DNA of 45,171 bases from assembly GCA_026394695.1 (NCBI GenBank), contig JAPKXT010000211.1, positions 1 to 45,171 of the forward strand. Reading direction: 5' to 3'. This DNA is from Methanoregula sp. GTDB taxonomy: Archaea > Halobacteriota > Methanomicrobia > Methanomicrobiales > Methanospirillaceae. The notes under the pieces were generated by a model that saw only the letters and a program-made list of their open reading frames with translations, was not told where the DNA came from and ran no database searches. Each line of letters begins with the position of its first letter. Positions within the stretch are counted from its first letter, which is position 1. Of this stretch, positions 30,350 through 33,527 are shown one piece after another. Both the position numbers and the translations under genes were made by a program.

Positions 30350-31519
30350 TTAACCGACCCATTCCAGGACGCCGCCGCCACTGGGCTGGTCCCTGCCGCT
30401 GCTTCTCCTGCTCTGGGGCATCTCAACCGCTTTTGGGTTTGAGCGCTTGTTCTCAATGTCTGCAATCATGGTTTTGTAGGACTGGCGTGTCCCGAGGATC
30501 TGCGCGCTCTTGACACCGGTCATGATAGCGAGCACACGGATCTTGCCCTCCATGTCGTTCCTGACCCGGGCTCCCCAGATAACATCTGCATGAGGATCAA
30601 GCTCATAGGTAAGCGAAGTTGCAACCTCTTCTGCATCCTGCAGCGTAAGGTCAGTTCCTCCTGTAATGTGGATGAGACTTCCGGTTGCGCCGCGGTAGTC
30701 AATATCAAGCATCGGATTGCTCAGGCATTCACGGACAACGCTTTCTGCCTTGTTCTGCTGTTTGCTTTCGCCAACAAGCATGACAGCAACGCCGCCCTTG
30801 GACATGATCGCCCGGACATCGGCATAGTCAATGTTAATGAGTGATGGTTCCGTGATTGTTTCCGAAATACCCTTAACGGTTTCACCAATGAGCTGGTCCA
30901 TTACAGAAAATGCCTGGCCCAAGGGCAGGTTCGGAACGAAGTTCTTCAACCGGTTGTTATCAAGGACAATAACTGAGTCTGATGCGGCTGCAAGTGCCTC
31001 GAGACCTTCTTCAGCACGGATCAGGCGTGCTTTTTCAACCTGGAACGGGTAGCTGACCATGCCGACTACGATTGCACCCTGCTCCTTTGCAATTGATGCA
31101 ACAACTGGAGCGGAACCGGTACCGGTACCTCCTCCCATACCTGCTGTGATGAAAACCAGATCGGCAGATTCAAGGACTGCTTCAAGTGTCGGGCGTGCCA
31201 TCTCGGCTGCGCGCTTGCCGACATCCGGATATCCACCGGCACCGAGGCCTTTGGTCAGGGATTTGCCAATGAGGATACGTTTATCGGCTTGGATCATGTC
31301 CAGATGCTGCTTGTCCGTGTTGATTGCAATCGTTTCTGCACCGGAAACACCCATGTGGTGGATGCGGTTCACGGTATTGTTACCTGCTCCACCACAACCC
31401 ACAATAACGATTCGTGGCTGGCCGACAAAGTCATCTTCCATTGCGTTCGCTGAATTTGGTTTATTCAGCTCTTTTTCAAGTTCGGCGTTTTTTAACGCAT
31501 CATTAATAATACTCTGCAT
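30350..31519 (-). CDS. ftsZ: cell division protein FtsZ (FtsZ2-like)
   Basis: [83 protein letters not shown]. Confidence 0.96.
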
Positions 31520-31529
31520 GTTTACCCTC

Positions 31530-31724
31530 TCAAACCTTGAATGAAACCTGGTCGCTATCCTTCAAGACACGACTTGCACGTTTTTCAACAAGTTCACGGA
31601 CCGCTGCCCGGACAGCTTCTGATACATTGGGATATTCCCCGGAGTTGACCATCTGCTGGAGCAGATAGATTTGCTGTTCTGGTAACCGGAGCGTGATTCT
31701 CTGCATCATCGTTGTATCTCTCAT
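31530..31724 (-). CDS. ribbon-helix-helix regulator, CdrS-like, upstream of ftsZ
   Basis: [55 protein letters not shown] beta strand plus two helices. Stop lies 10 nt before the ftsZ start. Start ATG 31724 or 31709; ORF extends to 31751. Confidence 0.85.
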
Positions 31725-31725
31725 T

Positions 31726-31786
31726 TCTGACACATGTCTGTCATCTGTCATTCATATGTCAGACAAAGAGAACACTTGTGTCTGAC
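31726..31786. promoter_or_regulatory. cluster of TCTGTCA/TGTCTGACA-type repeats, putative RHH operator
   Basis: TCTGACA 31726-31732; TCTGTCA 31737-31743 and 31744-31750 back to back; TGTCAGACA 31757-31765; TGTCTGAC 31779-31786. Confidence 0.5.
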
Positions 31787-31908
31787 TTAACCAGATGATC
31801 CAAACTATTACAGATAATGTATAAAAACTTTCTTCTTTGCTTTTTGTAAGTCTCTCAAAACACATTTAAGACAGCCAATCCAAGTAATTTGAAAAAGAGG
31901 GGATTTAA

Positions 31909-32910
31909 ATGATTATTGACTTTCCAGAACGGGAGGTTCATGGCGGTACCGGAAAGCGGCAGCGCGAGAAAACCCAAAAAACGGTGCTGGATTTCAGCGC
32001 GAGTACAAATCCCTTCGCTCCCTTGTTCGAGTGGCATTGTGATCCCGAACTCCTTGCATATTACCCTGATGACAGGTACACGCAGTTAAAAACCTGTATC
32101 GCATCTGCTTTCCACCGTCCTTCTGATGAAATATGTGTAGGGAATGGGTCAATTGAGATCATCAGGGTGTTCTGTTCAGTCGTGTTTAAGGGAGATAAAA
32201 AATATTTTTATACACAATCCCCCACTTTTGGGGAATATGCGTTGTCTGCCCGACTTGCCGGGGCAAACCGGGTAAGTAATTCCGGAAATGCCGACGTGTC
32301 GTTTATATGCAACCCAAACAACCCGACCGGTATTCTGCTGAAAAAACCTGAGATGAACTGCCATCTTGAAGACATGAAATCCCATGGAGGGCTACTTTTT
32401 AGTGACGAGGCATTTATTGAACTGGCGGATCCTGCACAGAGCATGGTGGATGTGCGTGACCCGGATCTCTTCGTGCTGCATTCTCTCACGAAAAGTTTTT
32501 CAATTCCCGGCATCCGCTTCGGGTACGGTTTTGGCGATCCGGACCTTATTGATAAAATTGAGATCGCCCGACCCCCATGGAGCGTGAATACATTTGCAGA
32601 GGCATATGCACTGGAAGCGTTCCGGCACTTGCATGAACTCACAGCATCGCGTGCCGCGATCACACAGGAACGTGAATGGCTCGCATCTGAGATTGACGCC
32701 ATGGGCCTGCACTGCAATCCCTCATCTGCCAATTACCTCCTCGTGGAATGTTGGCGGGATGTTACATCGTTCTGTGCCGCACTTGAACAACAGGATATTC
32801 TCGTCCGCGACTGCACATCATTTGGTTTACCCACCTGCATTCGTGTAGCAGTGCGGACACGAGAGGAAAACTGTATCCTTACCGAGGCACTATCAGCATG
32901 CATGCACTGA
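31909..32910 (+). CDS. cobD: PLP-dependent aminotransferase fold I, CobD-like L-threonine-O-3-phosphate decarboxylase
   Basis: LDFSASTNPFAP, YYPDDRYTQLKTCIAS, VGNGSIEIIRVF, CNPNNPTG, SLTKSFSIPGIRFGYG; overlaps a cobalamin-type nucleotidyltransferase. Confidence 0.75.
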   Translation: MIIDFPEREVHGGTGKRQREKTQKTVLDFSASTNPFAPLFEWHCDPELLAYYPDDRYTQLKTCIASAFHRPSDEICVGNGSIEIIRVFCSVVFKGDKKYFYTQSPTFGEYALSARLAGANRVSNSGNADVSFICNPNNPTGILLKKPEMNCHLEDMKSHGGLLFSDEAFIELADPAQSMVDVRDPDLFVLHSLTKSFSIPGIRFGYGFGDPDLIDKIEIARPPWSVNTFAEAYALEAFRHLHELTASRAAITQEREWLASEIDAMGLHCNPSSANYLLVECWRDVTSFCAALEQQDILVRDCTSFGLPTCIRVAVRTREENCILTEALSACMH

Positions 32911-33527
32911 TTATGGCCGGGGGCACCGGCAGCCGGCTGAACCGGGGAGAAAAACCCCTCATTTCAATCTGTGGACGACCGATGATTGCCTACGTGATTG
33001 AGGCGTTCTCAGCAGCCGGGTTTGAACCGGTTGTGGCCGCGTCACCAAAGACTCCCATGACCATGAACTGGTGCCGGGCACAGGGTATAGTATTCTGCAA
33101 GACCGATGGCGGGGGTTTCGTCGAAGATATGATTAGTGCAGTAAAAACCCTGGAGGAACATCACCCGCTTTTTGTCTGTGTATCTGATATCCCCTGCATC
33201 AGTACGGGAATTATCCAGCGAATTGCCGATTCATATCATCAATCGGGAAAAGATGCCTGTTCAGCATGGGTTCCGGCTGGACGTATTCATGCAGGCATCG
33301 GGGGTATGTCCTGCCGTCAACAGGTTAACGGGGTTGAGGCATGCCCGGCCGGCGTAAATATTCTCCGGGGTGATCTCATTGAACAGCCCCAGGATGAACT
33401 ACAGGTCCTTATCAGCGATCCAGGACTTGCCCTGAACGTCAATACACCTGCAGATCTTGCACGGGCTGAAGATTTTCTTAAAACTGCAATTTTAACAATA
33501 CATTCCCGGGTCCTGCACATTCCCTGA
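32898..33527 (+). CDS. cobY: NTP-transferase, adenosylcobinamide-phosphate guanylyltransferase CobY-like
   Basis: MHALIMAGGTGSRLNRGEKPLISICGRPMIAYVIEAF, FVCVSDIPCIS; 13-bp overlap with the CobD-like gene. Confidence 0.8.
   Translation: MHALIMAGGTGSRLNRGEKPLISICGRPMIAYVIEAFSAAGFEPVVAASPKTPMTMNWCRAQGIVFCKTDGGGFVEDMISAVKTLEEHHPLFVCVSDIPCISTGIIQRIADSYHQSGKDACSAWVPAGRIHAGIGGMSCRQQVNGVEACPAGVNILRGDLIEQPQDELQVLISDPGLALNVNTPADLARAEDFLKTAILTIHSRVLHIP

Follow-up and report, generated by a model that had tools for sequence, protein, structure and literature searches.

The ribbon-helix-helix (RHH) proteins Arc, MetJ, ParG and CopG are bacterial autorepressors, small dimers that occupy tandem short sites, several of which lie in their own promoter. 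The locus described here, contained in a window of 45,171 nucleotides (the whole stretch of methanogen DNA that was analysed), also has an RHH gene whose promoter region carries a regular series of sites, namely five conserved sites at 11-bp steps, but the bacterial operators differ from this array in sequence, in spacing and with regard to its archaeal cell-division context. The RHH repressor NikR, with the operator GTATGA-N16-TCATAC (PMC7055735), comes nearer in that its half-sites lie 22 bp apart, centre to centre, and the variant GTATGAC/GTCATAC is used at a second target within the genus of the window. NikR is a nickel-sensing protein with two half-sites (PMC7055735), however, whereas up to six sites stand in a row here and the RHH protein bears no metal domain.

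In Haloferax volcanii, the CdrS-FtsZ2 locus (Liao et al. 2021, PMC8406309) likewise has the gene of a small RHH protein immediately before ftsZ, and GTCwGAC half-sites 11 bp apart would be present at ftsZ1 and hisB, judging from the near relatives of this species. Unlike the array of the window, whose five sites all follow the predicted cdrS transcription start, the CdrS sites of H. volcanii are mostly located 41-110 nt upstream of starts, and no CdrS was detected at the cdrS promoter (PMC8406309). In Halobacterium, CdrL, another RHH protein of the same neighbourhood, binds upstream of cdrS-ftsZ2 (Darnell et al. 2020, PMC7439475), and the cdrS-ftsZ promoter is its sole reproducible site in the genome. 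CdrL has been reported only from Halobacteria (PMC7439475), and the half-site there is GTAAGAC as opposed to the GTCwGAC of the window. New to the present account are the 11-bp phasing of the sites, their phylum-wide reach, a two-target regulon in the genus and the change of half-site in Halobacteria.

The cdrS-ftsZ operon and the array in its leader

The features of the locus, in order of window position, are:

30350-31519, minus strand: ftsZ (Pfam Tubulin and FtsZ_C; TIGR00065, 412 bits)
31530-31709, minus strand: cdrS, ribbon-helix-helix regulator (Pfam RHH_1), starting at ATG 31709 (or 31706)
31724-31732, minus strand: array site E, TGTCAGAAA, matching TGTCwGACA at 8/9 positions; adjoins the ribosome-binding region; near-invariant in the genus
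31735-31743, minus strand: array site D, TGACAGACA, 8/9
31746-31754, minus strand: array site C, the weaker middle site, TGAATGACA, 7/9
31757-31765, minus strand: array site B, TGTCTGACA, perfect consensus, 9/9
31768-31776, no strand: empty slot of the 11-bp register, filled by a site in some relatives
31779-31787, minus strand: array site A, AGTCAGACA, 8/9; near-invariant in the genus
31788-31797, minus strand: conserved CATCTGGTTA block lying between site A and the predicted start, with hardly any change within the genus
31819-31827, minus strand: cdrS-ftsZ TATA box, TTTTTATAC, with a purine-rich BRE-like GAAGAAAG just upstream; conserved in the genus
31909-32910, plus strand: cobD-like threonine-phosphate decarboxylase (TIGR01140 is the best match, below cut-off), sharing the intergenic region

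The RHH gene lies directly upstream of ftsZ with a gap of 10 nt and encodes 59 amino acids from ATG 31709. Its RHH domain (PF01402, E 7.9e-7) covers residues 18-57 of the long open reading frame, with no further domain. The best NCBIfam model for the protein is CdrS (NF058555), a Halobacteria model, at 68.1 bits against an equivalog cut-off of 100 bits, and the product is therefore regarded as a methanogen CdrS homologue that falls outside of the halobacterial equivalog. With the usual archaeal spacing from the TATA box, the cdrS-ftsZ transcript would start at about 31797-31801, placing the array roughly 10-75 nt downstream of this predicted start. The CATCTGGTTA block does not match the consensus of the array sites and may represent the start-site region. 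The preliminary description of this DNA had put a TATA-like element on the minus strand at 31819-31827 and the repeats in the 5' region of the transcript, and both positions hold across the genus.

A scan with the pseudo-palindromic 9-mer TGTCwGACA, accepting at least 7 of 9 positions, finds sites starting at 31724, 31735, 31746, 31757 and 31779, all five in phase at 11 bp, or one helical turn, with one unfilled slot at 31768. Together they occupy 31724-31787, slightly more than the 61 bp within which five related elements had been described at first. Those elements are all found (TCTGTCA TCTGTCA at 31737-31750, TGTCAGACA at 31757-31765 and TGTCTGAC at 31779-31786), and the repeats of 7-9 bp are real, but their unit is a 9-mer phased at 11 bp. 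Likewise, the back-to-back TCTGTCA pair is present in the window but is a species-specific coincidence that is not kept in relatives, which retain the 11-bp register instead. The array is the densest TGTCwGACA cluster in the 45 kb window, with 4 sites per 61 bp as compared to a maximum of 3 in 20 Markov shuffles. Taken singly, GTCWGAC 7-mers show no enrichment across the window (7 found vs 4.2 expected), so the signal resides in clustering and phasing.

This lack of enrichment among isolated 7-mers would suit repeats that arose by chance, and an open reading frame from ATG 31751, which exists in this genome, would suit repeats that belong to a longer coding sequence. The probability of either origin is negligible, and both are refuted by in-frame stops in relatives and by the 11-bp phasing, which together with conservation far exceeds that of shuffles. 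Indeed, the N-terminal extension over the repeats holds an in-frame stop in most same-genus sequences, ruling out an extended coding region beginning at ATG 31751 or 31724, and with it a true start at ATG 31751 with coding across the repeats, a possibility raised in the preliminary description. Since protein-level conservation of CdrS in the same-genus comparison begins at M(M)QRITLRLP, the start of cdrS is placed at ATG 31709 or 31706, which makes the repeats leader DNA.

Conservation and a second target

Upstream regions of cdrS were compared from the same genus (32), from other genera and families of the order (37) and from other non-halobacterial orders (12), along with 23 from Halobacteria or of halobacterial-like type. 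At least three sites share an 11-bp register in 32/32 of the first group, 34/37 of the second and 7/12 of the third, such that phased chains of this kind are present in 73 of the 81 regions outside Halobacteria and in at most 0.06% of shuffles. Among 33 representatives, 157 sites are found where 30 are expected, and 212 of 273 site-pair distances are 0 modulo 11. Variation of the sites is concentrated at the dyad centre, as expected for dimer binding; within the genus, site B is variable solely at its central dyad base. An alignment of the footprint with those of relatives had been proposed as a check on the locus, and it shows the array conserved and its register kept. On comparison of these sequences, the array is retained across the whole order and, in altered form, across most of the phylum.

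Sites B and E could also act at the level of RNA, forming an 11-bp hairpin next to the cdrS ribosome-binding region that controls translation. The minimum free energy structure of the window leader includes this B:E stem, which pairs in 97.8% of cells within the genus, with two pairs changed on both sides, and in one relative a long perfect inverted repeat, TCTGACAAGAAGCTGCT/AGCAGCTTCTTGTCAGA, replaces the middle sites upstream of cdrS at the B:E region. However, the z-score of the leader fold is only -1.46, Rfam returns just two weak matches (E 0.19-0.23, far below gathering scores), and the stem is broken at the site's own dyad base in 5/29 sequences. Outside the genus, spacer pairing is found in 63/116 while the 11-bp register persists, and elsewhere the same element stands upstream of TATA boxes and thus outside of that gene's mRNA. 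An RNA element is accordingly an unlikely explanation of the array.

A genome scan, also proposed in the preliminary description, finds a second target besides cdrS that is not autoregulatory. The 29-bp three-site pattern GTCWGACNNNTGTCATNNNNNTGTCWGAC, with at most 3 mismatches, has matches in 52/60 genomes as compared to 2 matches in total for the reversed control, and nearly every same-genus genome carries it at two places, cdrS and one other gene. The second site precedes the TATA box of the gene for a 106-aa protein (MGGEIYQAQVIRNFFDCITGTDRNLTRIYM...) by approximately 75-90 bp; there, the GTATGAC/GTCATAC variant is used and TGTCAT at the spacing of site C is also retained. No Pfam or NCBIfam family was found for this protein, whose gene occurs in each of the 13 genera sampled from the order. 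Despite the presence of the gene, the site was not seen in other families of the order and appears only in this genus; the second target went undetected in the assembly of the window, whose completeness is 75%. In some genomes of another family of the order, a GTCAGACAATTGTCGTCC-type site immediately precedes the TATA box of a DUF2551 gene.

The binding protein and the halobacterial element

The identity of the binder is approached through Haloferax, where the pattern GTCWGACNNNNGTCWGAC, with at most 1 mismatch, gives 8-12 matches per genome in four genomes as compared to 1-3 for the reversed control, although most of these matches are not paired one by one with ChIP targets. The only two exact matches in H. 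denitrificans lie upstream of hisB and ftsZ1, both of which are among the CdrS ChIP-seq sites of H. volcanii (PMC8406309), and a CdrS-type site is present upstream of ftsZ1 in 4/4 Haloferax. In H. elongans, a site is also found upstream of a PRC-domain gene and of a proteasome-activating-nucleotidase-like gene, two gene classes that appear on the CdrS ChIP list (PMC8406309). Because GTCwGAC-N4-GTCwGAC marks Haloferax gene classes on this list, CdrS is the likely binder. The ChIP motif would thus be GTCwGAC, as drawn from the target genes rather than from the published logo, and the Haloferax CdrS motif very probably consists of a pair of TGTCwGACA sites spaced by 11 bp, which is also the unit of the window array. 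A CdrS-type site is also located upstream of a PUA-domain gene in four Haloferax species, in one of which an RNase R-like gene adjoins.

The array might instead be a genuine DNA operator that is bound by a transcription factor other than CdrS, as is the case in Halobacteria, where the paralogue CdrL and not CdrS binds the cdrS promoter (PMC7439475). The confinement of reported CdrL to Halobacteria speaks against this, as does the coincidence of the element with Haloferax CdrS ChIP-seq targets, and in nearly all same-genus genomes no close RHH match other than CdrS is found. Binding by another factor is hence improbable, and CdrS is preferred.

The cdrS leaders of Halobacteria carry GTAAGAC/GTCTTAC, usually 11 bp apart, instead of GTCwGAC; GTAAGAC-N4-GTCTTAC is accompanied there by more copies. 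Exact GTAAGAC-N2-6-GTCTTAC occurs once per genome in 10/12 haloarchaeal genomes, always at cdrS, and a loose haloarchaeal pattern, GTAAGACNNNNGTCTTAC with 2 mismatches, is near the control level and uninformative beyond cdrS. The GTAAGAC-N4-GTCTTAC of the halobacterial leader is likely the operator of CdrL, and the element upstream of cdrS has plausibly been taken over by this paralogue. Elsewhere in these genomes, GTCTGAC/GTCAGAC is found upstream of dacZ, encoding a diadenylate cyclase, in 4/12 haloarchaea, and in tandem 11 bp apart in one of them; with some gene starts unresolved, these sites are suggestive only.

A candidate autoregulatory operator

The reading favoured here, with a probability of roughly 0.78, is that the array serves as an operator for CdrS, the putative binder encoded just downstream, whose dimers would sit at 11-bp steps and exert negative autoregulation. 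Each TGTCwGACA would be contacted by one CdrS dimer through its two-stranded sheet, and dimers at 11-bp steps would therefore line up next to each other along a single face of the helix, where cooperative binding is possible. Since all sites are just downstream of the TATA box and the predicted start, bound CdrS would most likely block the loading or escape of polymerase, and CdrS and FtsZ would thereby be held at a set level. Position downstream of the start thus favours repression, and the negative sign is itself deduced from this position. The preliminary description had also proposed an autoregulatory operator, and this proposal gains support from the conserved footprint, the exclusion of ATG 31751, the position of the sites between TATA box and gene, and the element shared with Haloferax CdrS ChIP targets. 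Against it stands the absence of the H. volcanii cdrS promoter from the 18 ChIP sites (PMC8406309), and against a simple repressor, the report that Halobacterium CdrS activates ftsZ2, which is the opposite sign. CdrS would act as an activator where the element sits upstream of a promoter, as at the 106-aa gene in the genus and at ftsZ1 in Haloferax; activation from upstream positions has been argued from site position by the authors of the H. volcanii study (PMC8406309).

The intergenic region is shared with a divergent pair of genes at 31909-33527, in which a cobY-like gene follows the cobD-like gene, and the array might mainly serve these cobalamin genes, upstream of whose promoter it would occupy an activator position. 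At 28/32 loci of the genus and 30/30 of the order, the cobD-like gene and cdrS are divergently arranged, and knock-down data from H. volcanii point to activation of cobalamin synthesis by CdrS (PMC8406309). The fixed place of the array in the cdrS leader, between its TATA box and start codon, nonetheless renders a main role at cobD-cobY very unlikely. With this divergent arrangement kept at every one of the 30 loci of the order, the array may influence the cobalamin genes as well and could serve both directions.

A broader account, in which CdrS feedback metering FtsZ is ancestral to the phylum, GTCwGAC gave way to GTAAGAC upon takeover by CdrL in Halobacteria, and cobD-cobY became coupled to it in methanogens, is possible but doubtful as a whole. 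If true, takeover by CdrL, a duplicated RHH protein, would have freed CdrS for other genes in Halobacteria, and the array would offer a traceable case of operator change with the arrival of a paralogue. Few transcription factors are known for cell division in archaea; CdrS is one of them and has been studied only in halophiles. The array provides a concrete candidate for its operator in methanogens, with a consensus and spacing that can be used to search for targets across the phylum, and the two-target regulon of the genus points to an order-wide 106-aa protein that may act in division.
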